A DNA stretch of 39,499 nt, from the NCBI GenBank assembly GCA_017441205.1, contig JAFRYG010000220.1, positions 1 to 39,499 of the forward strand, read 5' to 3'. Source of the DNA: Pseudomonadota bacterium. Lineage in GTDB: Bacteria; Myxococcota_A; Bradymonadia; UBA4248. This document shows positions 2,649-39,312 of this stretch, piece by piece; the first letter of the stretch is position 1, and every line of letters starts with the position of its first letter. The notes under the pieces are model-generated. The model saw only the letters and a list, made by a program, of their open reading frames with translations, searched no databases and was not told the DNA's origin. A program made the position numbers and the translations under genes.

Positions 2649-4997
2649 ATGTCGAGAATTCATTCGTTCATTAAAGCATCGATATTATTCGCTGTTCTCA
2701 TTTCATGCGGCTGCGAATCCGATTCGTCGGCCAGTTCGGTTGTGCCTGAAGAAGAGTGTACGGATTCCTGTCAACCGGACAGCAAACGCTGCGGCACGGA
2801 TGGCGTCGAGATTTGTGTTAAACCCGATGAAGGATGCCCGGACTGGCAGCTTGATTCGAAATGCAAATCGGGGACGCATTGCAATGAAGAGTCGCTCAAA
2901 TGTGAAGCTGACGAGGAACCGCCGAAGGAATGTGAAGTATCCTGCGAAGATGGCAGCAAAAGATGCGGCGTCGATGGCATCGAAATTTGCAAGAAAGTGG
3001 ATGATGAGTGCTTTGACTGGCAGCTCGACAAAGCATGTGAAGGTGACACACATTGCGACTCGGACAAGTTCGAATGTGTTGAAGAAGATGTAGAGGACCC
3101 ACCGGGGGAATGCTCCGATGTTTGTGAAGAAAATGTAAAACAGTGCGGCGAAAATGGGGTCGAAATCTGCAAGAAACAGGAGAATGGCTGCTTAGAATGG
3201 GCAACAGAAAAGCCATGTGATGATGGTACACTATGCGATGCAGAAAAACTCGACTGCGTAGCTGGATGTGCTGAAATCTGTGAAGAAGACAAAAAAATTC
3301 GCTGCAGCGAAGACAATGAACTGGAAGAATGCAAACCGAATGCAAACGGCTGCGCGGAGTGGTCTGTGCTCAAAGACTGCGGTGATCTTGCATGCAGCGT
3401 CGAAAAAGCAGACTGCATCAAGGATTGCACACCGGAATGCACAAAAGATGAAAAGAAGTGCGACGGCAATGGGATCGCGACCTGTATCGATCCGGACAAC
3501 GATGGCTGCACGGTCTGGGATGCACCGGCAGCATGCGCCGATAATCAGTCCTGCGAAGGAGCCAAATGCATTGACAAATGCACTTCAGACCCGGACTGTA
3601 CCAAGGAAGGCGCAACCAAAACTACTTTTACCAGTATTAGTACTTGCAAAAAGACTGCTGAAGGCTGCCTGAAATGGGAAAATACTTTAACCTGCAATGG
3701 AGGCGAAAAAATCAGCGGCGGCAAATGCGTTAAAGTCTGTGGAAACAATTGCGATCCATTTTCGATCGTTTTGTTGCCGGATCCCCAGGAATATACGCGA
3801 TATGTCGACTCTAAAGGCAATAAATCCCCATCCACGAAAGATGGCCTTCCAAACACAGATATCTTTGCAGATCAGCTGAAATGGATCTCAGAACGAAAAA
3901 AGGAGAAAAATATCAAGGCGGTCATTCATCTGGGAGATATCACTGATACCAATAACGCTCATGCCTGGAAATTGGTCGACAATACCTATGCCAAATATTT
4001 TGATACCAAAGGAAACAGCGATTTGGCATATATCCTTGCGCCAGGCAATCACGACTTTTTACAGTGCAAATCGAATGATAGTGCAGTCGATAGTTGTCAT
4101 TATGCAAGGAAAAGTAATTTCAGTACTTATTTCAAATCCAAAAGATATAATGATACGCAAAAAAAATGGTTTGGCGGGTATTATAAAGATAAGAATGACA
4201 CAAAAACAAACTCATACATTACATTTACAGCAGGAGGCATCGATTTCATGGTCATCGCTTTGGAATATGCTCCCCGGAAGGAAGTTATCGACTGGGCCAA
4301 CAAGCTCATTATAGACAGTGAAGCGAAAAGAGAAAAAGAGGGAAAACCGGCTTATAAGGTCATTATTGAGACACATGCCTACATCAGTCCAAGAAGTTGT
4401 CTGAAGAATCCCAACCCCAATACAGATGGATATTACACAGGGGGGTATTCTTCAGTCGACGATGCCAGAAAAAAAGCTTTAGGCGGCAGTGCGCTGGGTG
4501 GCAAAGAAATGTATGATCAGCTCACATCGCGCCATAACAATATTATTTTGGTCGTCAACGGGCATCACTGCGGGTCTTATTTCAGACTCAACAAAGGTAA
4601 ATCCGGTAATGTCTTTGGTGAACTCATCGTCGATTACCAATGTGAAAATGGCTATGTTAAAAAATATAAAAAAGAAAAGGATTGTGACCACTCACACCAC
4701 AACGGAGGCGCTGGAATCGGTTTATTACGCATGCTTCATTTTGATCCAGCAAAAATGACTATCACGGCCAAAACGCATTCCACTTTGGGCGAAGCCAAAT
4801 TTAAAAATAAAGATAAGCGCATGTATTGCAACAGCGAAAAAGTAGATGTTAATGGAAAGGAAGTAGCTCTCTATCCCAAAGATTATTCACAAAAACCAGA
4901 TTTCAATATTGATTCAAAACATCCATCTACCAAAAATCATACATTCACGGTTACTGGTTTGGATTTCGTAACACCGATTAAACATGTATATAAATAA
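2649..4997 (+). CDS. cysteine-stalk metallophosphatase lipoprotein
   Basis: This 782-residue protein is predicted to be exported and lipid-anchored. The N-terminus has a basic and hydrophobic signal ending in a lipobox-like AVLISC. Residues about 35-370 hold roughly six cysteine-rich repeats of about 45 residues, with a pattern of C-x3-C, then a Cys-Gly, G-x3-C, and C-x2-W. Residues about 371-782 form a calcineurin-like phosphoesterase domain (PF00149 type). Metal-ligand motifs are visible in order: LLPDPQ, HLGDITD, APGNHDF, ETHAY and NGHHCG. It would therefore hydrolyse a phosphoester outside the cytoplasm; the substrate is unknown. The start is supported by GGGAGG nine bases before the ATG. 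It stands alone, with a long gap on the 3' side. The enzyme assignment is firm at fold level; the stalk role is inferred. Confidence 0.85.
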   Translation: MSRIHSFIKASILFAVLISCGCESDSSASSVVPEEECTDSCQPDSKRCGTDGVEICVKPDEGCPDWQLDSKCKSGTHCNEESLKCEADEEPPKECEVSCEDGSKRCGVDGIEICKKVDDECFDWQLDKACEGDTHCDSDKFECVEEDVEDPPGECSDVCEENVKQCGENGVEICKKQENGCLEWATEKPCDDGTLCDAEKLDCVAGCAEICEEDKKIRCSEDNELEECKPNANGCAEWSVLKDCGDLACSVEKADCIKDCTPECTKDEKKCDGNGIATCIDPDNDGCTVWDAPAACADNQSCEGAKCIDKCTSDPDCTKEGATKTTFTSISTCKKTAEGCLKWENTLTCNGGEKISGGKCVKVCGNNCDPFSIVLLPDPQEYTRYVDSKGNKSPSTKDGLPNTDIFADQLKWISERKKEKNIKAVIHLGDITDTNNAHAWKLVDNTYAKYFDTKGNSDLAYILAPGNHDFLQCKSNDSAVDSCHYARKSNFSTYFKSKRYNDTQKKWFGGYYKDKNDTKTNSYITFTAGGIDFMVIALEYAPRKEVIDWANKLIIDSEAKREKEGKPAYKVIIETHAYISPRSCLKNPNPNTDGYYTGGYSSVDDARKKALGGSALGGKEMYDQLTSRHNNIILVVNGHHCGSYFRLNKGKSGNVFGELIVDYQCENGYVKKYKKEKDCDHSHHNGGAGIGLLRMLHFDPAKMTITAKTHSTLGEAKFKNKDKRMYCNSEKVDVNGKEVALYPKDYSQKPDFNIDSKHPSTKNHTFTVTGLDFVTPIKHVYK

Positions 4998-14212: not shown

Positions 14213-17200
14213 CTAGAGATGACAAGGATTAGTGCTGCGTTTGTCAGAGACTTTCTTTCGCAGTTCGTCGGATGAACGCCGGAGTGAATTCAACCGATCG
14301 CTTTCTTCCCGAATCACAGTTTGGATTTCATTCATGTTGATGGAATCTTTTGAATTGGAATAGTTCGATTTTTGATTCTCATGAATGGCTTTGAGTTTTG
14401 CGGTTTCAGACAGCTCAAGGGCAACATCTGCGTGTTCGATGATGAGCTGGCGGAGTTCCTGCTGGTATATGTCGCACTGATGTTGTGGATTGGATGTTGT
14501 TTCGGTTTGTGTCTGAAGTGACGACGAAGAATTTGTTCCGATGAGATTTTCACGCTGACTCTTGCGGCGCTGGGATTCTTCTGCACTGAGTTTATTTTCG
14601 GCAGTCGTCTGGAGCTGATTGAAATGCTCGAACAGGCTCGCATTTGAACTCAGATAATGATGTCCGACCGGCATGCACGCGAGTTCAAAAAATGCATTGA
14701 AGGCATCTTTTTCGTTTTCTGTGCTGAGAGGCGAATTAAAGGATTTTTCGACCTGAGCAATCAGATCCTGTTCGTGCGAGAGCTGGTACTTGAGCGCATC
14801 TTCATCAGTGACACTGGGGATGGTCAGGAGGTTGTTTCCTTTGGCATTGGGAACCAGTTCCTTGATCCAGACATTGACTTTTTCGAGTTTGGGCTTTGCG
14901 CTTGAGAGTATTTTGGGACCGCCGGGAATGTTGGAAATCTTTTGGATGAGCTCGTTAATGGCCTGGATTTGAGGCTGTCGGATGGGGGTTCCGGAACTCT
15001 TTTGTTTGTCGAGGTTTTTGAGCAATTCCTGAAGCCGAATGACGTTTTGATTCAAATCAGCCTGCATAAATATGTGATCGGCGTATTTGTCCGTTGAGGG
15101 CTTTTCTGCGCTTGCAAAGAAGCATTCGGGCTGAACGCGGGTCTGAAGCTGTCTTCGGGTGCCAAGACTTCTGCTCATGCAGACGAGGTTATCGACGACT
15201 TCCTGATAATTCCGGAGAATGAGATCGAATGCGGCTAGGTTCGAGATGGAGCTCATCCAGTCGTGGTTATACTGTGAAGAATTCATTTGGAGCACATCCT
15301 GCGCAGACAGATCCTGGACGACAGAGGCGAGGATCAGGGCATTCTGGCGGTATTCTTCGTCGGTTCGTTTGCGGTTTTCGATGGGATGCGGGATGATGAG
15401 ACGCAGATCATCCACAGAAGAACGGAGATCTTCGAATTCGGTCTCGTAAGCCGCTTTTTCGAACTGGTTCCACAAATTGACCAGGACATTGAGGTAGGTC
15501 AGTTGTTCGATGAATTCATAAATCTTTTGGCCGCCGCCGGGTATCACAAGAAGTTTGGAATATGCTTCGAGAATATCGAGTCTTGGGATGGGTTGAAGCG
15601 GGTTTTGGTCTTCGTAAACAGATTCAATGAGTTCCTTAAGCGTCTGAGCGTGTTTTGTGCGCTGGGCAGAAATGGACTCATTGAGAGCACTTTCTGAGGC
15701 CGTTTTGACTGAAATGGAGCAGGATGTTTTGGAACTCAGAAATGTGTTGAGTTGTTTGATTTTTTCACTATGTTCCTGGAGAAATGTCGGGCCCCCCGGG
15801 GTATTTTCGAGTTCCAGAACAGATATGTTGAGCAAATCAAAGAGTGATTCGATGTTCTGATCTGACGAAGCGGCAGATGAATCCTGGGATGCGAGGATTT
15901 CCGAACTCAGGAATTCGAAGCTCTGAGAATGATGTTTGAGTCTGAACCGATAGGCTGGCCAGTCTGTGTAGTCAGAGGGGGCTTCCTGACTGTAGGGGGA
16001 AAAGAAATCGTTGTCCCATGGGAACAGATCGTTTGCATCCGGTTTAAAGCGCCGGATGCGCATGAGTTCAGACAAAAAGTCCTTTCGTTCGGGCTGGAAG
16101 AATAAGTAAGCGCCGCCCGGGGCATAGAGCAGTGCCGCCATGTCTGTCTTGAGTGCATCCGCAGCCGATTTGCATTCGGGGGCATCATTGCGGTCGAGAC
16201 ATTTGAGATTCAGGCGATAAAAGTCATCCAGGGCATTGTCGAGTTCAATCTGGTGGAATGTCGCATTGCGCTCAGCAAGTGCATTGGCAAAGTATTCCGA
16301 TGGGTATACGACCTGAGTCGCATTCGCATTGGAACTGGCGTGCTGATTCTGGTTAATGCGCAAAAACGTCGATGCATTGGATTGGAGGCAGATATTGGAA
16401 CCGGGAATGGGTTCGATCTTTTGAATCAAGGCATTGATGTCGCTGATGGTCATGGACTGGATCTGGGAATCCGAGTCCAGTTTGGTGTTCTGTTCATAGA
16501 GGTATTCGACGAGTTTCCTTTGATAATGCCTGATTCTGAACCGCGATATGGGATCGGATGCATAGATATTATCGGGATCATATATGGACTGAATGGCAGT
16601 ACATGCATCGGGCAGGGAATTGGAGAGTTCCGACGGAGAGTCGCCGAAAGTGTAAGTTTCGTTGATGATGGACTGGATGCAGTTAATCTGTGAGAGAACC
16701 TGATAATTCTGTGCGATGTAGTAGGTTTGTGCGCTGTTATCGAGGGATTGGAGGAGCTGATTGAATTCCGAAAATTGCTCTTCCCTGAGATGGTTTTTAC
16801 TTTGATACGAGTCGATCATGGAGAGGATGAGCTTGTCGAGCTTTGAGAACTGATCGACAATCGGTTGATTTTTTTCATCATCTCCTGCGGTACTGTCAGG
16901 GAATTTAAGGGTATTGGGGGAATTGAGGATTTTCTGGGTCTGATTGATCTGTTTGAGCAGATTTCCGTTCAGGGCACTGAACAGCTTGAAGGTATTGGAA
17001 TCCGTTTTGGCAATGAGCTGCGAGATGGCAGTGTTTGCATTATCGATCTGCGCCTGGGATGCAGGATTTTGGGATGATTGTTCGGTCTGGATATCGAGCA
17101 GTGCCTGGTCGAGCTGTGAAAGCGAAGTCAAAAGTGCAGAGTTTTCGACCAGAGCAACGTTGAAAACGCTTTTGACGGGTGCGTTTTGTGTGGTGGCGCA

Positions 17201-17269
17201 TCCATTCATGGCCATAAAAAGCAGAATGGAAATCGAAATAAGTATTGAAAACAAGGAGTGACGTGTCAT
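14213..17269 (-). CDS. large helical lipoprotein with degenerate Pro-Gly-Gly repeats
   Basis: A 1018-residue predicted lipoprotein: the signal ends in a lipobox-like AMNGC near residue 24. The start at 17269 follows AGGA six bases away. The rest is soluble, helical and rich in Gln, Asn and Ser. I see at least seven degenerate repeats about 90-120 residues apart. Each has a hydrophobic helix, a turn (IPGS, APGG, TPGG, IPGG, IPGG or MPVG in the clearer copies), a short hydrophobic segment, and then a helix with a conserved Asn such as LKQINQ, LSQINC, IKQLNT, LEKVNV or FEHFNQ. I know no family with this signature. A scaffold or binding role at the inner face of the outer membrane is possible but is inference. 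It lies between element C and elements D/E. Confidence 0.7.
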   Translation of the reverse strand: MTRHSLFSILISISILLFMAMNGCATTQNAPVKSVFNVALVENSALLTSLSQLDQALLDIQTEQSSQNPASQAQIDNANTAISQLIAKTDSNTFKLFSALNGNLLKQINQTQKILNSPNTLKFPDSTAGDDEKNQPIVDQFSKLDKLILSMIDSYQSKNHLREEQFSEFNQLLQSLDNSAQTYYIAQNYQVLSQINCIQSIINETYTFGDSPSELSNSLPDACTAIQSIYDPDNIYASDPISRFRIRHYQRKLVEYLYEQNTKLDSDSQIQSMTISDINALIQKIEPIPGSNICLQSNASTFLRINQNQHASSNANATQVVYPSEYFANALAERNATFHQIELDNALDDFYRLNLKCLDRNDAPECKSAADALKTDMAALLYAPGGAYLFFQPERKDFLSELMRIRRFKPDANDLFPWDNDFFSPYSQEAPSDYTDWPAYRFRLKHHSQSFEFLSSEILASQDSSAASSDQNIESLFDLLNISVLELENTPGGPTFLQEHSEKIKQLNTFLSSKTSCSISVKTASESALNESISAQRTKHAQTLKELIESVYEDQNPLQPIPRLDILEAYSKLLVIPGGGQKIYEFIEQLTYLNVLVNLWNQFEKAAYETEFEDLRSSVDDLRLIIPHPIENRKRTDEEYRQNALILASVVQDLSAQDVLQMNSSQYNHDWMSSISNLAAFDLILRNYQEVVDNLVCMSRSLGTRRQLQTRVQPECFFASAEKPSTDKYADHIFMQADLNQNVIRLQELLKNLDKQKSSGTPIRQPQIQAINELIQKISNIPGGPKILSSAKPKLEKVNVWIKELVPNAKGNNLLTIPSVTDEDALKYQLSHEQDLIAQVEKSFNSPLSTENEKDAFNAFFELACMPVGHHYLSSNASLFEHFNQLQTTAENKLSAEESQRRKSQRENLIGTNSSSSLQTQTETTSNPQHQCDIYQQELRQLIIEHADVALELSETAKLKAIHENQKSNYSNSKDSINMNEIQTVIREESDRLNSLRRSSDELRKKVSDKRSTNPCHL

Positions 17270-17493: not shown

Positions 17494-18312
17494 TTATTCA
17501 GCAGCTTTTTCTTCTTTCACTTCTTCTTTCTTTTCGCATTTGCAATCGTCGCATTTTCCGCAGCATTTGCATTCGAAGACGAATTTGTAGAGCACACCGG
17601 CGATCACGGCACCGAGGATTGGGAACACGATGAATACCCAAAGCTGAACGAAGGAGTCACCCTGGTTGAAGACTGCCATGGCGAGGGAGCGGGCAGGGTT
17701 GACGGAGGTGTTGGTCACGGGGATGCTGATGAGGTGAATGAGGGTGAGGCAGAGGCCGATGGCAACAGGGGCGAGTCCTGCAGGAGCACGTTTGTCGGTC
17801 GAGCCGATGATGACGAACAGGAAGATGCAGGTCAGTACGGTTTCGGTAAGAATGGCCGAGAGCATACCGAAGGTGTGGCCGCCGAAGGCATTGAATCTGA
17901 CTTCTTGACCGTCAATCGTTTTAATGATTGCATCTTGGGCATCTGTCCAGCCGTTGGTTGCAAAACCACCGACGGCACCGGTGAGGTCAGGCTGTGCAAT
18001 GACAAAGATGAGCGTAGCAGCGAGCAAGCCACCGACGACCTGGGCACCGATGTAGGCACAGGCACCCTTAACACCATCATCAAAACGACCGGCAGCGCAG
18101 AGGCCGAGCGTGACAGCCGGGTTCAGGTGGCAGCCGGAGATGTGGCCGATGGCATAGGCCATGGTCAGAACGGTCAGACCGAAAGCGAGGGCAACACCGA
18201 CATAGCCGATGCTGGGGGTGGCACCACAGGCGAGCACTGCTGCGCCGCAGCCGCCGAAGACGAGCCAGAATGTACCGATAAGTTCAGCAATAGCTTTTTT
18301 TGCAAGACTCAT
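17494..18312 (-). CDS. aqpZ: aquaporin Z-like water channel with cysteine-rich C-terminal tail
   Basis: A 272-residue inner-membrane channel of the MIP family with six membrane segments and both NPA loops (HLNPAVT and SVNPARS). The selectivity filter matches E. coli AqpZ by position. Phe is in the [10 protein letters not shown] helix, and His of TLIHL, Thr of NTS and Arg of NPAR have the same 9- and 15-residue spacings as AqpZ His174, Thr183 and Arg189. This indicates water rather than glycerol transport. Two oddities: a Cys replaces Gly before the first NPA loop ([11 protein letters not shown]), and the predicted cytoplasmic tail carries [16 protein letters not shown] followed by Glu/Lys residues, a metal-binding-like cluster not found in AqpZ. 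The start has AAGGAG eight bases upstream. The gene is monocistronic, with a strong terminator. Confidence 0.95.
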
Positions 18313-18525: not shown

Positions 18526-20664
18526 TCATTGCTTGCTCTCTTTGCTAAAAGGTATGACGCCGAAGAATTTTCGGACGATTTCCTGGTTTTTAGATAATAT
18601 TTTTTTATCCGATGGCCTTTGATCCATGTAGTAGCTGAACAGATAATTCTCCTTGTTGTAGCCGTTAATTTTATGCGTTTCGTTGTTGAAGCACTTTTCG
18701 GTCTCGTAATAGCGCGCTTTTTTCTCACTGTTCTGATGAATTTCGTTGCTGAATTCCATCTGGACGCCGATTCTGGTTTTGGACTTTTTGGAACCGCCGA
18801 CAATGACCGTGGGATCGCTTTTCTGAATGTCCATGAGCGCATTTTTATAGGTGCCGTATTTGACGTGATTCATATAGTTGTATTTACTGCCGTTTTCATA
18901 ATATCCGACCTGAATGATGACATCGTCGAAGATATCCAGTACGTTGGTCACTGCTCCCATGGCGAGTACCTTATCTGGAACTGCGTATGACAGTGGATAG
19001 AAAGGAGACCAAAGGAATTTGACTGCATTCCAGGTTTTTCCATCTTTTGTATAGGGTTTATGAATGTACTGTGACAGCTTATTGAATAATTTGATGTGAG
19101 GGTTTTTAAGGGGATCTTTTATATCAATTTTATAGTTAATATCCTCACTATGAATCGATTCGCTGTGAATGTAGATGCCGACGACGTGTTTGTTCCATTT
19201 TTCCGGACCGAGTGCAGTGCGTAAATCATCGATGTACTGTGTGTACATCTGATAATGGAGTTCAAAGAATTCTTCGGCAGAATATAATTTTTTTGCATTT
19301 TCTGGATCAGATTTATAACACTTTGCAGACCCGGCTTCTTTGATCTCATATCCACATTGCATCATAGGTGTTCCAATCCAGACTTTTTTGTTTTCGCCAT
19401 TTGTCGAACTGATAATCATATTGAGCGTGTCAGTCATAATTTTGACAAGGGTCGGAAAACGATGGTCTGTATTTGGCTCGCCGTATCCCCATGTTCTGTA
19501 ATCAACTGCCGGACACAACACGAAGTGGGTGAGGCCGAAATCATCAATTTCATCCGAATCATAGGGTAAATAAGGGGTTCCGGTGTACAGGAATACTGCT
19601 TTATTGGGGCAGCCGTTGGCGCACGGATGTTTGGAGAGACAGTCTTTGGGGCATTTTTCGTAGGTTTCGGTGTCCTGGCATATTTTGTCGCCGCAGTAAT
19701 TATTGCAGTCCTGAGGGCAAGTGTTGAATGTTTCGCCGTTGTTGCAAATGCTGTCACCGCATTCTTCGCAGCGGCCGCAGTCCACCGGGCATGATTTGCA
19801 TGTTTCTCCGTCTTTGTCTTCGCAGCTATTGTTTCCACAGACTGCGCATTTCCCGCAGTCTTTCTCGCAAGACTTGCAAGTTTCATCGCCGTTGCATGAA
19901 CCATCTCCGCACGAAGCGGTTTCCGCGCATTTCCCGCAGTCTTTTTCGCAAGATTTGCACGTTTCGTCGCCGTTGCATGAGCCATCGCCGCACGAAGCGG
20001 ATTCCGCGCATTTCCCGCAGTCTTTTTCGCATGATTCACACGATTCATCGCCGTTGCATGAACCATCGCCGCACGAAGCGGTTTCCGCGCATTTTCCGCA
20101 GTCCTTTTCGCACGATTCGCACGTTTCATCGCCGTTGCATGAACCATCGCCGCAGGAAGTGGTTTCCGCGCATTTTCCGCAGTCCTTTTCGCACGATTCA
20201 CACGTTTCGTCTCCGCTCCATGTTCCGTCTCCGCACGAAGCGGATTCCGCGCATTTCCCGCAGTCTTTTTCGCACGATTCACACGTCTCATCACCGTTGC
20301 ATGTACCGTCTCCGCACGAAGCGGATTCCGCGCATTTTCCGCAGTCTTTTTCGCACGATTTGCAGGATTCATCGTCGCTGCATGTACCGTCTCCACAGGA
20401 GGGAGTTTCTGGGCATTTTTTGCAGTCCTTTTCGCACGATTTGCAGGATTCGTCGCTGTCACATGTACCATCGCCGCACCAGCTGTTTTCGTTACATGAT
20501 CCGCAGTCCTTTGGGCACGATTCGCATGTCTCATCGTTTTCGCATGTATTGTTGCCGCAGGCGTCTGATGGCGAATCAGAATACTGCAGAGTGGAATCCT
20601 CACAGCTGAATGTGAACAGGGATAGTGCAAGGATGGCAGTAAAATACGCGTGTTTCTTCATCAT
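18526..20664 (-). CDS. lipoprotein with twelve short Cys repeats and DUF4855-like domain
   Basis: A 712-residue predicted lipoprotein with signal and lipobox FTFSC. The ATG at 20664 follows GGAGG. Residues about 36-340 are twelve repeats of about 25 residues with the pattern CGDG-x-C-x3-E-x-C-x2-C-x3-C-x2-C. The middle nine are nearly identical. In the fifth copy the third-position Cys is Trp (codon at 20218-20220). Residues about 345-712 form a globular domain with VVGIYIHSESI, KFLWSPFYPL, a DDVIIQVGYY strand and a late GVQMEFSNE. These resemble the TIM-barrel, glycosidase-like DUF4855 family, where a Glu near IHSES or QMEF could be catalytic. Carbohydrate binding or cleavage at the surface is inferred. 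The repeat stalk would hold the domain away from the membrane. Confidence 0.7.
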   Translation of the reverse strand: MMKKHAYFTAILALSLFTFSCEDSTLQYSDSPSDACGNNTCENDETCESCPKDCGSCNENSWCGDGTCDSDESCKSCEKDCKKCPETPSCGDGTCSDDESCKSCEKDCGKCAESASCGDGTCNGDETCESCEKDCGKCAESASCGDGTWSGDETCESCEKDCGKCAETTSCGDGSCNGDETCESCEKDCGKCAETASCGDGSCNGDESCESCEKDCGKCAESASCGDGSCNGDETCKSCEKDCGKCAETASCGDGSCNGDETCKSCEKDCGKCAVCGNNSCEDKDGETCKSCPVDCGRCEECGDSICNNGETFNTCPQDCNNYCGDKICQDTETYEKCPKDCLSKHPCANGCPNKAVFLYTGTPYLPYDSDEIDDFGLTHFVLCPAVDYRTWGYGEPNTDHRFPTLVKIMTDTLNMIISSTNGENKKVWIGTPMMQCGYEIKEAGSAKCYKSDPENAKKLYSAEEFFELHYQMYTQYIDDLRTALGPEKWNKHVVGIYIHSESIHSEDINYKIDIKDPLKNPHIKLFNKLSQYIHKPYTKDGKTWNAVKFLWSPFYPLSYAVPDKVLAMGAVTNVLDIFDDVIIQVGYYENGSKYNYMNHVKYGTYKNALMDIQKSDPTVIVGGSKKSKTRIGVQMEFSNEIHQNSEKKARYYETEKCFNNETHKINGYNKENYLFSYYMDQRPSDKKILSKNQEIVRKFFGVIPFSKESKQ

Positions 20665-20921
20665 CAGATACCTCCGTTGTGATGCTGGAAAGTGAAAAAA
20701 TCGAGCAATTGTCTGTCAGTCAATATCATAATTCAAGAACAGGATTATTCTCCAATAAATAATTTGTTAAGATCGATTGTTCTGGCAGGGACTGACTCCG
20801 GAGTTTTCAGGGAATTTTCCGTATTGGGGCGCCGGTTGAATTTGAGGGGGAGTGGATGCGCGAACCTTCAGAACCAAAATAATTGCATGAATGGCTTTTG
20901 TTTGTGATAAAGATGCTGCGA

Positions 20922-20939
20922 CTGGCTCGGTTGAGCCAG
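20922..20939 (+). promoter_or_regulatory. inverted repeat in the leader of the NtrC-type regulator
   Basis: Arms CTGGCTC and GAGCCAG around GGTT lie 33 bases before the proposed start codon of the regulator. It could be an operator for autoregulation or an RNA hairpin. There is no further support. Confidence 0.3.
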
Positions 20940-20971
20940 ATAACTTATTACCATTTGGAAAAGGTGTTCCC

Positions 20972-22441
20972 ATGGCCAATGCCAATATTCTCGTTGTGGA
21001 TGATGAAAAGAATATCTGTCGGACTATCAGCATGGTTCTGCAGGGTGAGGATTACGAAGTCGATACGGCATCGAGTGCCGAGGAGGGGCTCGAGATGTTG
21101 GCGGAACGTTCGTACGATGTTCTGCTGCTCGATGTTCAGATGACGGGCATGACCGGCCTGGAGATGCTGGAACGCGTTCATCAGATGGATGGAGCGCCGG
21201 AAGTCGTGATGATGAGCGGCCATGCGATGCTGACGGATGCGGTCAATGCGACGCGTCTGGGGGCATTCGATTTCCTCGAAAAGCCGCTCGATCGCGAAAG
21301 GCTGCTGCTCGTGGTGCGCAATGCCGGCGAACGGCATTTTCTGGCACAAAAGGTCCAGAGCCTTGAGAATACGGATGCCCGATACTGCGGCATGATCGGG
21401 GAATCACCGGCGATGCAGCGGGTGCGCAAGGCTGTGGCAGTGGTTGCACCGACCAAAGGAAAGGTTCTCATTTTGGGAGAATCCGGCGTCGGCAAGGATC
21501 TTGTGGCTCGCTCCATACATGCCCTGAGCGATCGTGCAAAGCGTTCGTTTGTCAAAGTCAATTGTTCGGCGATTCCTTCCGAATTGATTGAGAGCGAGTT
21601 GTTTGGTCATGAAAAGGGATCGTTCACTGGTGCAGGCGCGAGCAAGAGAGGGTTGTTTGAGATGGCCGATGGCGGTACGATTTTCCTGGACGAAATCGGC
21701 GACATGTCACTTGCCGCGCAGGCCAAGGTTTTGCGCGTTCTCCAGAATGGTGAATTTACGCGCGTCGGCGGTGAGAAGCTCTCTTTTGTGGATGTGCGCG
21801 TGATCGCAGCGACGAACAAGGATTTGAAAAAAGCCGTTGCGGAAGGAACTTTCCGCGAAGACCTTTATTTCAGGCTCAATGTCGTTCCGATCGAAGTACC
21901 TCCGCTTCGCGAACGCCTTGAGGACATACCGCTGCTGGTCAATGCATTCCTTGCGCAAATTGGCGAGGAGTATGGTCGTACACCTCTTAAAGTGAGCGAC
22001 AAGGCCATGGAGACGCTGTGCAAATACACGTATCCCGGCAATATCCGTGAGCTTCGCAATCTGTGTGAACGCTTTGTGATCATGTGTCAGGACATCGTGA
22101 CAGCGGCAGATCTGCCTGAGGAAATCCAGGAAGAAGTCGAGAGCCAGTCACCCAAGCAGAGCATGCATGTTTTGCAGGCGATCGCCCCGGTTGAGCAGTC
22201 ATTGGGACAGCCATCGGGTGAGGATGATTATCTGGCCAACCTGGCCAAAGTTAAACCGGGCACAGTGACGCTTCGCGAATTCCGTGCAATGGCCGAACAT
22301 GCTTTCATCAAGGCGACGCTGGACATGACGGGGCAGAGTGTGTCCAAGGCTGCGGATATGCTCGGTATTGAGCGCACGAATCTGCACAAGAAGATTAAAA
22401 AATACGAATCACCGAACGGTGCCCTGGATGATGATGATTAA
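20972..22441 (+). CDS. NtrC/NtrX-type sigma-54-dependent response regulator
   Basis: A 489-residue two-component activator. An upstream in-frame extension of 27 codons lacks receiver similarity; ATG 20972 with AAGG upstream begins MANANILVVDDE. The receiver domain (about 1-120) has the acidic pair DDE, phospho-acceptor Asp in LLLDVQM, Ser in MMSGHA and Lys in EKPLD. The AAA+ domain (about 140-380) has Walker A GESGVGKD and Walker B GTIFLDEIGD. Its sensor/arginine region reads FREDLYFRLNV. The sigma-54 contact loop reads GSFTGA instead of the usual GAFTGA. The C-terminal Fis-type helix-turn-helix ends SKAADMLGIERTNLHKKIKKY, as in NtrX. No histidine kinase is adjacent, so it is an orphan here. 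It activates sigma-54 RNA polymerase; targets are unknown. Its stop codon overlaps the stop of the convergent permease gene. Confidence 0.92.
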   Translation: MANANILVVDDEKNICRTISMVLQGEDYEVDTASSAEEGLEMLAERSYDVLLLDVQMTGMTGLEMLERVHQMDGAPEVVMMSGHAMLTDAVNATRLGAFDFLEKPLDRERLLLVVRNAGERHFLAQKVQSLENTDARYCGMIGESPAMQRVRKAVAVVAPTKGKVLILGESGVGKDLVARSIHALSDRAKRSFVKVNCSAIPSELIESELFGHEKGSFTGAGASKRGLFEMADGGTIFLDEIGDMSLAAQAKVLRVLQNGEFTRVGGEKLSFVDVRVIAATNKDLKKAVAEGTFREDLYFRLNVVPIEVPPLRERLEDIPLLVNAFLAQIGEEYGRTPLKVSDKAMETLCKYTYPGNIRELRNLCERFVIMCQDIVTAADLPEEIQEEVESQSPKQSMHVLQAIAPVEQSLGQPSGEDDYLANLAKVKPGTVTLREFRAMAEHAFIKATLDMTGQSVSKAADMLGIERTNLHKKIKKYESPNGALDDDD

Positions 22442-25139: not shown

Positions 25140-28100
25140 TTAATTCACCGGGCCACAGGAAGCTTCTTTGTCCAGTTTGCAGTTCGGAGTGCATGTGGGA
25201 TTGTTGCATGAATAACCGCTATGATAGTGACTGCATAAGGTGCCGCAATCCTTAAAATCTTTGCCATCGCATTCTTCACCATCATCGACGACACCATTGC
25301 CGCATTTCGTGCAAACATAGTTGGTCCTTGGTTCGCATGACGGACTGTAGCACTTCGGCCACTTGTCGCCGGCGATTTGTTCTTCGACACTGGGAAGAAG
25401 CAGCATGCCTGATGCCTGACAGTACTGTTTGAGCTCATCGAGGGAACGATACGTATCGACTGAATTGATGATGTCACAGATTTCATCTTTATCAAGGACG
25501 CCATTGCCGCATGTCGTACAGCTCTTTTCGATGTCCAGCTTGCATTGATCGGTACAATACCAATCTTCTGCTTTGCCGTACTGCGGATAAAAACTCAGGT
25601 TGGCTACGAGCGACGGATCGGCAGCCTGACATGCTTTCGTAAACAATTCTGCATCATAGGGCGAATAGTTCATCGCCACACCTGCTGTGACATCGCAGTC
25701 CTCGCCATTTTCCAGATCCAGTTTGCGGTCGCCGCAGCGCATTTCATCCAGAACATTCAGAGGACAGGAGAATTTGCCGAAATCATCCGAAAATTTCTTG
25801 AGAAGAGCATCGGATTCACTCGAAAGAAGTCTGATATAATTAATCCCTGAGTAGTCTTGTTTCAGATCGGATGAAAATTCCAACAATTCTGAAGAATACA
25901 GCTCGCTTGCCAAATAATTGCAGTTCCGGATGCGTCTGATGATGTTGTCTTCCCCTTCGAGCAGGAAGGTCATGGTAAGGGAGTCGCCGGTGATGGGCTT
26001 TGTCTCGTCAGTGATATCGCTTTCAGCAAAGACCGGAACATTTTCATCGCAGTAGATGGCAACGGCCCTGTGCAATGCTGCCATCTGTGCAAGGTTTACT
26101 TTATCATCCGGAATATAGATATCGCAGGGAAGCTTGATGGGCGGTACCGCGTCGTTGGGCATTGCTTCGATCGCTTTTTTGGTGGATTCAGAGCATATCG
26201 TCCAGACATGGAACGGTTCGATCTCCGGAATATTTATCTTTTCGATGGGATAATGTCTGTTGTATGGATACTTTTTCTTTGTAATGTATAGAGCGCAGTG
26301 GCCGGGATCCTTGGTCAGACCTACGTTCATGAATTCAAGAGCAAAGATATTTTTATCATCTTCATGAGTTTCGACATCGGCCTGAGTCAGAATGGGTTTA
26401 AATACATTGCATTCAAATTTGCCCATATCATCCCAGAATAAGGCCGTTTCGTAGAATTTGTTGTCAAGTACTTCGCCGTCGTTTGTGGAATATGAACTGC
26501 CCATATTCGAAACCGGCAGCCAGGTTTCGATGCGTCTTTTGATATTGCATACCGGTGCGGTCTGATCGCATCTGCGCATAGCATTCGATATTTCATGGTG
26601 AGTATATTCCAGGTCGCCATCCTTGATGTATTCATTATAAGGCGTGAGGACTTCGATGGGCGTCACTTCGACAGGTGCGCTTTCGGATGGCTCTGCGATG
26701 TCACCGCATACGATGGCCAAAGCATCTCCCTGAGTTGCCGGTTCTCTCGAAGTGGAGATTTTGAGCGGCTGAAGCGTGTCGAGGATTTCGTCGCAGAACT
26801 GTTTTGAATATTCGTTGAGTGTATAATAAGCATTGTCCTTCGTATATTTCTTGAATCCGGCTGCACAGAGGACGATCGATTTGCCGGAAGGCATCGATTC
26901 GGGGAATGACCAGGCGCGCGAAGTCGCTTTATACACCGGTGTTTCGCCGTTGAATGTATAACTGACGTGATAGACGCCGCATTTGGAACCATCCGTACCA
27001 TCGCCGACATTCGTTATTTCATACAAAGACGTATCGTACACGCTGTATTTTCCTGATTCGCTGGTCTGCAGGCTCTCGCCTACGATAACAAACTGCGTAA
27101 ATATTGGTGAAATGGGATCATCGATGCAGGATTTTGTCGTATCGATGTGACACGTATCATCACAAGCGAGCGTTTCGGCATTGTGCTTGCCCTTGCCGCA
27201 TTCAAATTTCGTATCGAACTGCTCCTTGTCGCATTCTTCCTTATCATCGTTAATCACACCATCACCGCACTTAGGTGCAATGCAGGAATGTTCAATATCT
27301 ATTTCACATGTATCAGTACATTTAAGATCACTTGCAGTGAGGTAGTTTTCCGGGCAGCTGACATCTGCATTCCACTCGAATTTGTTCAAATCGCATTCTT
27401 CACCGTCATCCAGTGTGCCATTGCCGCATTTTGGGGTGCAGGACTGTTCAAGATCGATGGTGCATGATTCTGTACAGACGCGTTTTTGAGCAAACTCGAA
27501 TTTATCTGGACAGCTGACCTCCGGATTTTTATCGAATTCGTTCAAATCGCATTGTTCGCCTTCATCCAGCGTGCCATTGCCGCATTTGGGAGTGCAGGAT
27601 TGTTCAAGATCGATGGTGCAAGATTCTGTACAGACGCGTTTTTGAGCAAATTCGAATTTATCTGGACAGCTGACCTCCGCATTTTCATCGAATTCGTTCA
27701 AATCGCATTGTTCGCCTTCATCCAGCGTGCCATTGCCGCATTTGGGGGTGCAGGATTGCTCAAGATCGATGGTGCATGCATCGTTACAAACGAGGTTTTG
27801 CGCAGGTTCCGTACCCTCGGGGCAGGAAACATCGATATCATTTCGGAACTGTGATTTATCGCATTGTTCGCCGTCATCCAGTTTGTCGTCGCCGCATTTG
27901 GGGCCAGCCGCAACGCAGGATTTCTGCAGATCAATCGTGCATGTGCTGCTGCAGACGAGCGTTTGTGCGGGCGTTGTATTATCGGGGCAGTTGACGGCAT
28001 TATCCTGTCGGAACGATGTGTTGTCGCACTCTTCTCCGTCCTCCAGTATGTTATTGCCGCATCTGGCGATAATCGGTACGCAGGATTTATCGATATCGAG

Positions 28101-28307
28101 GGTGCATGTATCGGTGCAGAACAGCGTTTGTGCGGGCATCGTGTTTTCGGGACAGGTGATGGTGGATATATCAGGAAATGCTGTTGTGTCGCATTGTTCC
28201 TGATCATCGATGACGCCATTGCCGCATGCTTTGGAGTGGCTGGCATCATCTGAACATGCGCTGGTGAGTAAGGATAAAATGGCAGAAATAAAAATGTATT
28301 TTTTCAT
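25140..28307 (-). CDS. large Cys-repeat lipoprotein with unknown central domain
   Basis: A 1055-residue predicted surface lipoprotein. The start at 28307 (AAGGA upstream) yields a lipobox LLTSAC; the longer frame adds 11 residues without support. Residues about 25-390 hold seven repeats of about 50 residues, each CGNG-x-LD-x-GE-x-CD, an Asn/Glu-Phe segment, CP, then C-x3-C-x-ID-x4-SC. Three are nearly identical in DNA (period 156 bases). Residues about 400-860 form a domain I do not recognise, with scattered cysteines. Three more CG-repeat units follow (CGDRKLD, CGNGVLD, CGNGVVDDGEECDG), giving a stalk-domain-stalk plan. The pattern is related to, but distinct from, DUF4215. It is transcribed divergently from the fibro-slime genes. 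A cell-surface or adhesive role is inferred only. Confidence 0.75.
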   Translation of the reverse strand: MKKYIFISAILSLLTSACSDDASHSKACGNGVIDDQEQCDTTAFPDISTITCPENTMPAQTLFCTDTCTLDIDKSCVPIIARCGNNILEDGEECDNTSFRQDNAVNCPDNTTPAQTLVCSSTCTIDLQKSCVAAGPKCGDDKLDDGEQCDKSQFRNDIDVSCPEGTEPAQNLVCNDACTIDLEQSCTPKCGNGTLDEGEQCDLNEFDENAEVSCPDKFEFAQKRVCTESCTIDLEQSCTPKCGNGTLDEGEQCDLNEFDKNPEVSCPDKFEFAQKRVCTESCTIDLEQSCTPKCGNGTLDDGEECDLNKFEWNADVSCPENYLTASDLKCTDTCEIDIEHSCIAPKCGDGVINDDKEECDKEQFDTKFECGKGKHNAETLACDDTCHIDTTKSCIDDPISPIFTQFVIVGESLQTSESGKYSVYDTSLYEITNVGDGTDGSKCGVYHVSYTFNGETPVYKATSRAWSFPESMPSGKSIVLCAAGFKKYTKDNAYYTLNEYSKQFCDEILDTLQPLKISTSREPATQGDALAIVCGDIAEPSESAPVEVTPIEVLTPYNEYIKDGDLEYTHHEISNAMRRCDQTAPVCNIKRRIETWLPVSNMGSSYSTNDGEVLDNKFYETALFWDDMGKFECNVFKPILTQADVETHEDDKNIFALEFMNVGLTKDPGHCALYITKKKYPYNRHYPIEKINIPEIEPFHVWTICSESTKKAIEAMPNDAVPPIKLPCDIYIPDDKVNLAQMAALHRAVAIYCDENVPVFAESDITDETKPITGDSLTMTFLLEGEDNIIRRIRNCNYLASELYSSELLEFSSDLKQDYSGINYIRLLSSESDALLKKFSDDFGKFSCPLNVLDEMRCGDRKLDLENGEDCDVTAGVAMNYSPYDAELFTKACQAADPSLVANLSFYPQYGKAEDWYCTDQCKLDIEKSCTTCGNGVLDKDEICDIINSVDTYRSLDELKQYCQASGMLLLPSVEEQIAGDKWPKCYSPSCEPRTNYVCTKCGNGVVDDGEECDGKDFKDCGTLCSHYHSGYSCNNPTCTPNCKLDKEASCGPVN
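27415..27775 (-). repeat. tandem 156-base coding repeat
   Basis: Units begin at 27415, 27571 and 27727 (GTGCCATTGCCGCATT). The first two full units are nearly identical at the DNA level and encode 52-residue Cys repeats. The third is partial before diverging. The near identity points to recent duplication or gene conversion. Confidence 0.8.
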
Positions 28308-28495
28308 GTTTTTCCTTGGTTTTAGGGAATAATTTTGCATTTAATAGCAAAGAAAAGCCGATCAATTATAGAAGTTTTCGGCATGTATGGCAAGTTAATA
28401 CGAAAATCTAAAAAGGTTGACGAATTTAATTCTAAAGTTCGTGGATATATTTTTGTGGCATGCCTTTGCGCTGCATGCGCATGCGGCATGCACTT

Positions 28496-28798: not shown

Positions 28799-28946
28799 TA
28801 ATAATTTGATTAAATGATTGCGTATCAGTTGTAGGATACAAAACATACGTTGCATTTAAAGCATTGAATATTCTATAATAAAATGTGTTTTTGTGCACGC
28901 TTCGATGTGAAAATCGGTGTGGAATAATGATAGTTCGGAGGTCGTT

Positions 28947-31900
28947 ATGAAAGTTATTCATCATTGTCTTGTGTTGAGTCTCCTCTGTGTTGTGGGGGCT
29001 GGATGCAGTGATCTTACGTGGAAGTCGCCGGATGATTTGTGCGGCAACGGTAAGCTCGATTTCGGTGAGCAATGCGATGAAGGGATGAATAATGGGGATG
29101 ATAAATGGTGTACATCCCAATGCGAAATGAACACCGGCGTGCATTGCAACAGCGAACATACGTCTTGCAAGCCGGCAGGCTGCGGCAATGGCATGATAGA
29201 CGATGGCGAAGAGTGCGACGATGGTGAAGGCAATAATGGGGATGATAAATGGTGTACGTCTGGCTGTAAGATAAATACGGAAGTACATTGCGCGAATGGT
29301 CACACGGATTGCAAGCCGATAGGCTGCGGCGACGGGGTGATTGCAGGCGATGAAGAGTGCGATAATGGAACTGATAATTCCGATGAAGCCTGGTGTACGA
29401 CGCTGTGCAAGATCAATCCTGACTATCACTGTGATGCAAGTCGAAAGAACTGCGTACGGATTGGCTGTGGCAATGGTGTGATCGATGAAGGCGAAGAATG
29501 CGATGATGGGGAAGGCAATAATGGCGATGATAAGTGGTGCAATTCGAACTGTAAGATTAATACAAATGTTCATTGTGATAGTGACCACACGAATTGCAGG
29601 CAGCCTGATTGCGGTGATGGCGTGATAAATGGTGACGAAGAGTGCGATGATGGCGAAAATAATGGAAATGATAAGTGGTGTGATTCGGAATGTAAGATCA
29701 ATACCAAAGTACATTGTGATAGTGACCACACGAATTGTAGGAAGCATGACTGCGGTGATGGTGTGATAAATGGCGACGAAGAGTGCGATGATGGTGAAAA
29801 AAATGGAGATGATAAATGGTGTAATTCGGAATGTATGATCAATACCAGTGTTCGTTGTAATAGCGAACGCACTGAGTGCAAGAAGATAGGCTGCGGCGAT
29901 GAAGTTGTAGCCGATGAAGAGGTGTGTGATGATGGCAATCAGACTGATGGAGATGGCTGCAGCAGCGACTGCAAGAAAGTTGAGATAGAAAATGGATATA
30001 TATGTCCAAAGTTGGGAGGCAAATGTATACAGGTAGAATGTGGTAATGGAATCATTGATGGCAATCCAAATGAATTTGTCGGTGCTGTCGAAGAATGTGA
30101 TGAGGGTAAAGAGAATAATGCACCAAATAATTGGTGTACAGACAAATGTGAACTTAATCCCAAGTATCATTGTGATCCTAAATATGAAGATTGTATAAAA
30201 ATAGGGTGCGGTGATGGCATGATTGATCAGGATCAAGAAGAGTGTGATGAGGGGGAAAAGAATTCAGATAAAGGCTGGTGTACACCTGATTGCAAAATCA
30301 ACAAGAGTGTACGCTGCGATGATAATCATTCGAACTGTGTAGAGATTCAATGCGGAGATGGTCACATTGATATTGATGAAGAGTGTGATGATACTAATAA
30401 TGATCCAGGCGATGGCTGTGATGGAACGTGTCATCTTGAATCTGGATATGTATGTCCCAGAAATGGCGAAAAGTGTAAACAAGCTGTCTGTGGGAACGGT
30501 ACTGTAGAGGGAGACGCTGATAATTATGTCGGAGCCACAGAAGAATGCGATGATGGATGGAAGAATTCCAACACGAATTGGTGTATGATGGATTGTACAA
30601 TTAATCTGTCATTCAGAAAAGATGATAATGGAAACTGGGTAAAGAAATATTGCGGCGATGGCGTCGTTGACACAGACCTTGGTGAAACCTGCGATGATGG
30701 CAATAACGGTGCGGGTGATGGCTGCGATCCGCTGTGCAATGTCGAGCAGTTTTTTGAATGCAGCAAAAATGATAAACAAAAAAGCGAGTGTAAACCAATA
30801 TGTGGAGATGGGGTATGGCTGAGTGAACGTGTTCTGGATAATAAGCTTAAAAACATTGCAGAAGCATGTGATGATGGTAATAAAGAAAATGATGATGGTT
30901 GTAATTCGAATTGTGAGGTTGAGCCAGATTATATGTGTATACCCAGATCTTTTAATAGTTTAGATAATTTCAAGAAATATGTGAGTCTTGGTGATGAGCT
31001 TGCCCAAGCTATATACAATAATATAGTTAAGAATAGCATTTGGGTAATGGCAACTCAACGCGATTTTAGATGGTTTAGAGAACAGAGTGGAGATGGTGGA
31101 AAGACAGAACAGGCATTTCTGGATACGCTTAGCGAAGATTGTAAATGTAAAACCATTGAATGTAAAGATGGTGAGCGTGGATTTGCTGTTGGCTATGGAC
31201 ATCCGGACTTTCAAACAATAGATACGTCTAATATTTATAGTGATAATATTTTAGAATCGGTTCTAGATGAACACGATAAGCCTGTTTTAAATTTAAATCG
31301 CCAAGACGCAGCAGATAAGTTGAAACGTCCGTGGACTTGTCAAAGCTCATTCGATATGTGGTTTAACGATGATCCGTTATTTAATCGCCGATATTATTCT
31401 GTTCTGAGGCTTGTTAAAAGTGATAATGTTTTTAAGTTTGATTCCGATAATGGTGTGTTTGGTAATGTTATTAAAAAAAGTGATAATACAGATTGTGATA
31501 AGAATAAAATAATTCAACAAGAGTTTAACAGTGTTAAATGTGATTATTATGGTTTGGATGGTGACTATTATTTGAATTATTATAGACTGGGTGATATTTA
31601 TGGATTGAGTAATGTTGGTAGATACTATCCAATTGTTCAAAAGTCATTGGAATTTGTATGTAATAATAGTGATGGCAAAAATTCTGATTTTACAACGGAG
31701 ATTCACACGTTTATTAAATATGAACCTAGTGATATAAAATACTCTACGCGTTCTGATGATGATAGCTGGATGTTTGTAAATCATCGGTTATTGATAGATA
31801 ATGGTGGAATTCATGGTGCGTCGTATATGGAAAAGGATATTGATAACAAAGATATTTCAGTTGGTAATGATAGCAAAGTTAGATATAGTAATGCCTATCA

Positions 31901-32027
31901 AATGTTTAAAGGTGGTATTTATCCGGTTTCGGTATTTTTTGTTGAGCGTGGCGGTGGATCGACACTCGAGATTGGTATTCCCGATCTGATCGATGCACAG
32001 GCCTCGATTTGTGTGAAGACAAATTAG
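28947..32027 (+). CDS. fibro-slime domain lipoprotein with DUF4215-like repeats
   Basis: A 1026-residue predicted surface lipoprotein. The ATG at 28947 with GGAGG upstream gives a signal and lipobox VVGAGC. Residues about 30-660 contain thirteen cysteine repeats of DUF4215 type (CGDG or CGNG, about six residues, GEECDDG, then C-x3-C). Three early copies are nearly identical. Residues about 668-1020 are a fibro-slime domain. It shows a RDFRWF start, GHPDFQ, LKRPWTCQSSFDMWFNDDP, a SDDDSWMFVNHRLLIDNGGIHG metal-site-like core, and GGIYPVSVFFVERGGGSTLEI. Fibro-slime domains occur in bacterial and Dictyostelium extracellular matrix proteins, so adhesion or matrix formation is the likely role. The domain-coding 3' third is markedly more AT-rich than the repeat region, hinting at a mosaic origin. 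A decayed copy of the 3' end follows the gene. Confidence 0.88.
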   Translation: MKVIHHCLVLSLLCVVGAGCSDLTWKSPDDLCGNGKLDFGEQCDEGMNNGDDKWCTSQCEMNTGVHCNSEHTSCKPAGCGNGMIDDGEECDDGEGNNGDDKWCTSGCKINTEVHCANGHTDCKPIGCGDGVIAGDEECDNGTDNSDEAWCTTLCKINPDYHCDASRKNCVRIGCGNGVIDEGEECDDGEGNNGDDKWCNSNCKINTNVHCDSDHTNCRQPDCGDGVINGDEECDDGENNGNDKWCDSECKINTKVHCDSDHTNCRKHDCGDGVINGDEECDDGEKNGDDKWCNSECMINTSVRCNSERTECKKIGCGDEVVADEEVCDDGNQTDGDGCSSDCKKVEIENGYICPKLGGKCIQVECGNGIIDGNPNEFVGAVEECDEGKENNAPNNWCTDKCELNPKYHCDPKYEDCIKIGCGDGMIDQDQEECDEGEKNSDKGWCTPDCKINKSVRCDDNHSNCVEIQCGDGHIDIDEECDDTNNDPGDGCDGTCHLESGYVCPRNGEKCKQAVCGNGTVEGDADNYVGATEECDDGWKNSNTNWCMMDCTINLSFRKDDNGNWVKKYCGDGVVDTDLGETCDDGNNGAGDGCDPLCNVEQFFECSKNDKQKSECKPICGDGVWLSERVLDNKLKNIAEACDDGNKENDDGCNSNCEVEPDYMCIPRSFNSLDNFKKYVSLGDELAQAIYNNIVKNSIWVMATQRDFRWFREQSGDGGKTEQAFLDTLSEDCKCKTIECKDGERGFAVGYGHPDFQTIDTSNIYSDNILESVLDEHDKPVLNLNRQDAADKLKRPWTCQSSFDMWFNDDPLFNRRYYSVLRLVKSDNVFKFDSDNGVFGNVIKKSDNTDCDKNKIIQQEFNSVKCDYYGLDGDYYLNYYRLGDIYGLSNVGRYYPIVQKSLEFVCNNSDGKNSDFTTEIHTFIKYEPSDIKYSTRSDDDSWMFVNHRLLIDNGGIHGASYMEKDIDNKDISVGNDSKVRYSNAYQMFKGGIYPVSVFFVERGGGSTLEIGIPDLIDAQASICVKTN

Positions 32028-32405: not shown

Positions 32406-32607
32406 TCAAAATATATAAAAAAAGTTCTATTGCACGAATCCTGTGTTGAACCGAAAAAATGTCTTATTATCAACGCGTTTTGACAATTAATTATTTCATT
32501 GAAGTGCAAAAAATGGCTATATTGCGTGAGTCTGCCCCTGCAGGGGGCATAAGCGTCACTTGATCATTTCTTGAAATGACTTGTTTTTCCTTGAAGGAGA
32601 ATTCGTG

Positions 32608-38600: not shown

Positions 38601-39312
38601 GGATGCAGAGGAAGAGTGCGATGATGGTACAGCCAATAACGACGGTCATTACGGCGGCTGCAACAAATTCTGTATGAAAGGCCCATATTGCGGCGATGGC
38701 ATTAAGAATGGCGATGAAGTCTGCGACTTCGGCACGGCCAACAATGACACCACGTATGGCGGCTGCACGAAATCGTGTAAGCTTGGTCCTCGCTGCGGCG
38801 ACGGTATCAAGAATGGCAACGAAGCCTGTGACAAGGGCGAAAGCAATAATACCGGCGAATACGGTGGCTGCACCAAGAATTGCCAGCTTGCACCGTATTG
38901 CGGCGATGGTGTCAAGAATGGAACCGAAGAATGTGACTTCGGAACCGCCAACAACACGGGTGTCTACGGCGGCTGCAACATGGATTGCACGAGAGCTTCG
39001 TATTGCGGCGATGGCAATGTCGACGCCAATGAACAGTGTGATGACGGCACCGAACACAATACAGGTGGCTATGGTGAATGTACCTCAACCTGCAGACTCG
39101 GTCCGTATTGCGGCGATGGCAAGATTCAGTCCGGAGAACAGTGCGATGACGGTACAAACAATGAAGATGGCCTCTACAACGGCTGTCAGAAGGATTGTAC
39201 CAAGGGTCCGTATTGCGGTGATGGTATTGTCAATGGCGATGAGAAATGCGATTACAATGCACCGGGTATGGATGACAGTTGTTCGAAGACTTGTACACTC
39301 AAGGTGAATTAG
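32608..39312 (+). CDS. giant fibro-slime lipoprotein with about 46 cysteine repeats
   Basis: A 2234-residue predicted surface protein. ATG 32608 has GAAGGAGAA just upstream; an in-frame TTG at 32581 lies before the ribosome site and is rejected. The signal ends in lipobox LVGC. I count 27 repeats before and 19 after an internal fibro-slime domain (about 1250-1545). The domain shows [54 protein letters not shown] and [15 protein letters not shown]. Two repeat subtypes occur. One is classical DUF4215 (CDDGN-x3-GDGC-x3-C); the other is longer and lacks that loop, ending YGGC-x3-C-x4-YCGDG. The N-terminal ~9 and central ~7 blocks contain the classical type, while the C-terminal third is almost all YGGC type. 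Likely a long disulfide-rigid adhesin or matrix fibre; the repeats may bind calcium through their Asp-rich loops (inference). Confidence 0.9.

Follow-up and report, generated by a model that had tools for sequence, protein, structure and literature searches.

A conserved cysteine-rich C-terminal tail in the aquaporin Z of one bacterial family, possibly a tethered metallothionein-like element

The DNA stretch analyzed here in its entirety (39,499 nucleotides, hereafter the window) encodes an aquaporin that ends in a dense cluster of cysteines, and this raises the question whether the cluster is an accident of sequence or an element with a function added to a water channel and, in the latter case, what that function might be. 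The gene and its channel part are located as follows.

17494-18312, minus strand: aqpZ, aquaporin Z with an extended C-terminus, 272 aa (ORF call, profiles and fold)
17575-18312, minus strand: channel part, residues 1-246 (alignment of 32 AqpZs and predicted fold)
18130-18132, minus strand: Cys61 (SGCHLNPA), preceding the first NPA motif, ordinary for AqpZ

The product of this gene is a canonical AqpZ by sequence and by predicted fold. It scores 289.1 bits against the NCBIfam aquaporin Z equivalog NF003838 (cut-off 256) and 148.4 against the Pfam MIP family (threshold 25), narrowly missing the broader TIGR00861 model (163.4 vs. 171.25). In the alignment of 32 AqpZs, both NPA motifs are present (N64-P65-A66 and N205-P206-A207), and the selectivity filter consists of F44, H193, T202 and R208, the filter positions being those given in a figure legend of PMC6912568. 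The sequence matches AqpZ structures, and the top PDB matches of the predicted fold are AqpZ crystal structures, with TMt of about 0.9. The description of this protein in an earlier note, made from the DNA letters, as an otherwise canonical AqpZ is thus borne out by profile, alignment and fold alike, and water transport is predicted from its membership in the AqpZ class. No other MIP-family gene was found in the source genome, which is 94% complete. The AqpZ of Escherichia coli (PDB 1rc2; NF003838) shares with it the six-helix channel, both NPA motifs, the filter residues and the fold but ends right after the last helix, whereas the protein from the window continues for 26 extra residues that include the six cysteines. 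The loop that follows FATNGW (residues ~121-148) is longer than in most of the other sampled AqpZs, and the corresponding loop of the Fibrobacter AqpZs is lengthened too. The same note had also pointed to a cysteine next to the first NPA loop as an oddity; Cys61 is indeed there, but cysteine is the commonest state at this position among the sampled homologs (75 of 111 rows, or 72 of 108 distinct proteins), so we rejected it as a peculiarity of this protein.

The extension itself consists of two parts.

17536-17571, minus strand: Cys cluster, residues 248-259, with C250, C251, C254, C257, C259 and K258 invariant in 7/7 family proteins
17497-17535, minus strand: Lys/Glu-rich end, residues 260-272, charged in relatives, with varying length and sequence

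Six cysteines within 12 residues (248, 250, 251, 254, 257 and 259) and a charged Glu/Lys end are both present at the C-terminus, as originally noticed. By the alignment and the predicted fold, the tail directly follows the last helix; in the predicted model, pLDDT is ~50 across the tail, suggesting that it is probably disordered without a ligand. Three of the tails described below were compared with Pfam and matched no family, even at E up to 10. At a Cys frequency of 1.5-2.5%, which was assumed and not measured, the binomial chance of at least six cysteines in a given 12-mer is 1e-8 to 2e-7, and if 1.4 million such 12-mers are assumed, 0.01-0.3 runs of this kind would be expected. A single one could be luck, but luck does not account for a cluster that recurs in the same position in all seven AqpZs of the host family. 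The possibility that such tails are a genome-wide habit was discarded, given that a query made of the C-terminal 31 residues matched aqpZ alone in the source genome.

AqpZ is encoded in seven of the eight host-family genomes examined; the remaining genome (G002), although 99% complete, lacks aqpZ. The other six proteins are 70-84% identical to that of the window, and the Cys tail is present in each of the seven, with five of the six cysteines, K258 and also K261 invariant in the alignment, in which the placement of gaps within the tail is partly the choice of the aligner. Within DCKC[DE], codons vary synonymously (GAC/GAT, TGC/TGT, AAA/AAG) and the residues are mostly retained. The motif CC-x(0,12)-C-x2-CKC-[DE] is found in 7/7 tails, compared with 0.07-1.4% of composition-preserving shuffles per tail and 0.6-3% if shuffling is confined to the Cys-bearing part, a statistic that applies to a motif chosen after the tails were seen and ignores shared ancestry. 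A DNA pattern for CKC-[acidic]-KK matched aqpZ in six of the eight family genomes, the misses being G002 and G007, whose tail lacks the exact pattern; two further short ORFs matched in G006 and look like chance hits. Tail length, counted after E247, varies from 26 to 91 residues within the family. The longest tail, that of G007 (91 residues after the equivalent Glu), contains 20 Cys arranged in CxC and CC and in repeated, near-identical KCEIKCDAS-like and CDASKCEIK-like units. In the AqpZ of G005 (L005:1477-2295), the last helix reads ETIMMALVISAVTIVGG as opposed to the QLWLFWVAPI-like sequence of its relatives, possibly the result of an assembly error or of two frameshifts that compensate each other.

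The presence of the tail in every close relative that has the gene, together with its expansion to ~20 Cys in one of them, suggests that the channel probably carries a genuine metal- or thiol-binding appendage. Dense cysteines in CxC, CC and CxxC arrangement are found in the family tails, a spacing that we take to be of the metallothionein type. In a reducing cytosol, such clusters with Lys spacers are typical ligands of soft metals, and we therefore favor, at roughly even odds, the reading of the extension as a metallothionein-type thiolate tail, located in the cytoplasm and probably disordered, that was added to AqpZ and would bind soft metal ions. The metallothioneins themselves (bacterial SmtA type, PF02069) show the same CxC, CC and CxxC with Lys between them, most closely resembled by the tail of G007, but the family tails differ in being fused to a membrane channel and, for the three compared, in having no Pfam match. 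Metal binding is suggested by the spacing of the cysteines taken together with their conservation, spacing alone being no proof. On this reading, the lineage has attached a Cys tail, which is encoded in frame, to the AqpZ water channel, with the C-terminus predicted to be cytosolic as it is in E. coli AqpZ. A review of prokaryotic aquaporins, where it describes AqpZ, places both termini in the cytosol (PMC6912568), which would put ~24 thiols below each tetramer. The four tails could then form a local metal-thiolate site of ~24 Cys, in which the reduced thiols would hold soft metals, for example Zn(II) or Cu(I). The likeliest use would be to bind or buffer metal at the membrane, and an influence on water flux, although possible, has no support. 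Points against a metallothionein-like tail are the missing Pfam match of the three tails compared, the lack of a recognizable metal gene in the annotated part of the window, the presence of at most one Cys in 12 of 29 Fibrobacter tails and the absence of aqpZ from G002.

The neighborhood of aqpZ contains one gene with a recurrent association.

20891-22441, plus strand: sigma-54-dependent NtrC-type response regulator, with a homolog near aqpZ in five of the six relatives examined

For all 25 NCBIfam models listed, out of 114 matched, the score of the regulator falls short of the curated cut-off. Homologs with 71-89% identity lie on the aqpZ stretch of G001, G003, G004, G005 (where the contig ends within the gene) and G006; in the sixth relative, G007, aqpZ is on a 4 kb contig with other genes around it. 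The two genes are divergent in G003, G004 and G005 and convergent in G006; in G001 they are divergent with a protein kinase gene in between, and in the window they are divergent with an ORF for a 712-aa Cys-repeat protein in between. The regulator is a possible partner of aqpZ, and the link may be only genomic. No conserved shared element was seen in six stretches compared upstream of aqpZ, and the window has no Rfam or tRNA matches. No metal gene was recognized beside aqpZ (besides this gene, the window has 17 ORFs of at least 100 aa, and 8 of them were compared with family libraries), and a free bacterial metallothionein (PF02069) was found in 0 of 9 genomes. The flanking ORFs, 14213-17269 and 18526-20664, match no Pfam family, the next gene being the response regulator.

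Several ORFs of the window have compositions of their own. That at 18526-20664 (minus strand), the 712-aa ORF mentioned above, has a signal-like start, tandem CGDGTCNGDETCESCEKDCGKC-type repeats and 74 Cys, and is absent from the aqpZ stretches examined in the relatives. Large Cys-rich ORFs with lipoprotein-like starts at 2649-4997, 25140-28340, 28917-32027 and 32581-39312 (57, 76, 86 and 221 Cys, respectively) make the region unusually Cys-rich, and a relative of the largest is present in G005. The ORF at 14213-17269 (minus strand) encodes a lipoprotein-like protein of 1018 aa in which a short IPGG-containing motif occurs several times.

The tail cysteines might instead serve a structural or redox role, cross-linking or bridging the subunits or tethering a partner, with metal unneeded or merely structural. 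Each tetramer would have many cysteines adjoining a charged Lys/Glu end that could bind a partner, and a kinase or response regulator gene is found near aqpZ in several relatives, both of which are compatible with such a role. However, in the cytosol of an anaerobe the tail would be expected to be reduced, and no partner was identified. We consider this reading improbable. We are similarly skeptical of a metal- or redox-gated channel, in which metal or a disulfide in the tail would open or close the pore at its cytoplasmic mouth, in line with the suggestion of the earlier note that the tail could sense metal or redox state and gate the channel. The tail begins directly after the last helix, four copies would lie beneath the tetramer, and PMC6912568 names divalent cations among the factors that gate aquaporins in eukaryotes. 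Against this stand the tail modeled as disordered, its length range of 26 to 91 residues, awkward for a gate, and the call in the same review for further investigation of gating in prokaryotes. Neither structure nor comparison gave any sign that the tail touches the pore, and the proposed gating is not supported.

Vicinal thiols bind As(III), and the tail could in principle capture As(III), Sb(III) or similar thiol-reactive species at the membrane; elsewhere in the phylum, some distant aquaporins also end in CC or CCC. The selectivity filter, however, is of the narrow AqpZ type rather than that of a glycerol or arsenite channel, both ORFs flanking aqpZ lack a Pfam family and are followed by a response regulator, and nothing recognizable as ars was seen near the CC-ended channels when their ORF lists were read by eye. 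No ars genes were found beside aqpZ in the window either, where the flanking ORFs were compared with Pfam and the other ORFs are partly annotated. We find metalloid capture unlikely. A parallel is AqpS of Frankia, like the AqpZ of the window a prokaryotic aquaporin, which has a long cytoplasmic C-terminal stretch that possibly retains arsenic oxyanions (PMC4531530). In the account of AqpS given there, this stretch is arginine-rich in one Frankia strain, with no mention of Cys, and the gene is grouped with arsR, arsC2 and cadI. The distant aquaporins of the same phylum that end in or near CC/CCC (L025, L026, L027, L028 and L029) possibly represent an independent thiol tail.

Outside the host family, the tail thins out. 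In the same class, AqpZ was found at E 1e-30 in 15 of 57 genomes, eight of them outside the family, and among these eight channels a Cys tail is present in G037 alone (ACCKKCCCEKKDGE; tail ACCKKCCCEKK). Six of the best 80 loci from a scan of named genomes have at least two Cys in the last 35 residues, which is not an unbiased rate because one of the six query peptides came from the tail and the 80 are the best of a larger match set; 13 of the 80 (including L097) were scored by the Cys count in the last 35 residues, and all had 0. The six comprise a roe deer omasum record with the tail of G004, two from Fibrobacter(ales) and one each from Lentisphaeria, Accumulibacter and Saezia, three of them belonging to the clade of the family and Fibrobacter. 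Among the best 80 loci sampled, Cys tails elsewhere in AqpZ sequences are rare. A second Cys-tailed lineage around the Lentisphaeria tail (L077) was considered and rejected: 9 of 118 genomes matched, and among the seven of eight other tails inspected, several Cys occur in L172 alone.

The sequences nearest to the family are from Fibrobacter. Among 120 relatives of a Fibrobacter genome, 33 match AqpZ at E 1e-30, and 29 of these 33 proteins are 68-75% identical to that of the window. At least two tail Cys, as in the window protein, are present in 17 of the 29, in a shortened, ECKCCKK-like form of ~7 residues compared with 26 or more in the family, and CKC is found in 16; the other 12 have one tail Cys or none. 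Thus, conservation in orthologs, proposed earlier as the check on the tail, holds throughout the host family (7/7), whereas the tail is absent or nearly so in part of this more distant group.

For phylogenetic analysis, identical proteins, proteins shorter than 200 aa, nine duplicate loci (L001 and L119-L126) and rows without NPAR were dropped, leaving 135 rows, and the removal of eight distant rows (L018 and L024-L030) left 127. In the maximum-likelihood tree of these 127 AqpZs, for which the alignment included a few tail residues and the bootstrap had not settled, the family and Fibrobacter channels form one clade (100/98). This clade persists (SH-aLRT 99) in a quicker tree of 87 rows, built on an alignment cut before the tail. 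Its rows were those of the family and of Fibrobacter, what remained from the genome searches, 35 others drawn at random, and L077, L101 and L107. Within the clade, the Fibrobacter sub-clade is well supported in the 127-row tree (100/98) and the grouping of the family's seven proteins weakly (43/83). G008, from the same order, is placed elsewhere and has no Cys tail; G037 is sister to the clade in the 127-row tree (90/90) but not in the 87-row tree. When the presence of at least two tail Cys is mapped on the 87-row tree, at least 10 changes are required, suggesting that the trait was gained or lost repeatedly and, together with the 12 of 29 Fibrobacter proteins with at most one Cys, that outside the family the tail is labile and can be dispensed with. 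On the simplest reading, the gene would have been transferred, in one direction or the other, between the family and Fibrobacter when its Cys tail was still short; the family would then have lengthened this tail, and some of the Fibrobacter lineage would have eroded it.

Such lability is also what might be seen if Cys, Lys, Asp and Glu codons drifted and duplicated at an unconstrained C-terminus, producing a near-neutral, low-complexity tail; the highly variable length, the near-identical repeats of G007, which resemble recent duplications, the short or missing tails in the Fibrobacter group and the 10 changes on the tree would all fit. This scenario is nevertheless doubtful, given that five cysteines are invariant in 7/7 family proteins with synonymous changes between them and that the motif exceeds its expectation from composition in shuffles, shared ancestry being uncorrected. 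We give little credence to the compound proposal of a tethered metallothionein-like gate, with a metal-thiolate cluster of four tails and metal- or redox-responsive flux, in a gene transferred between Fibrobacter and a lineage unrelated to it that shares its gut habitat.

The cytoplasmic ends of AqpZ are described as short in the review cited above (PMC6912568). Among the matches listed in searches of the open-access literature (titles and abstract openings), no aquaporin with a Cys-rich, metal-binding or metallothionein-like tail is described, nor does such a protein appear among the matches listed for Fibrobacter aquaporins and arsenite aquaporins. Even if the tail merely buffers metal at the membrane, the protein would still be a fusion of a channel with a metallothionein-like element, of which we found no description in that literature. 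We know of no ligand-gated prokaryotic aquaporin so far, and a metallothionein-gated AqpZ, if true, would to our knowledge be the first. The Cys-tailed AqpZ, its tailless Fibrobacter sisters and the relative with the super-expanded tail together make up a comparative set for tail-dependent metal binding or gating.
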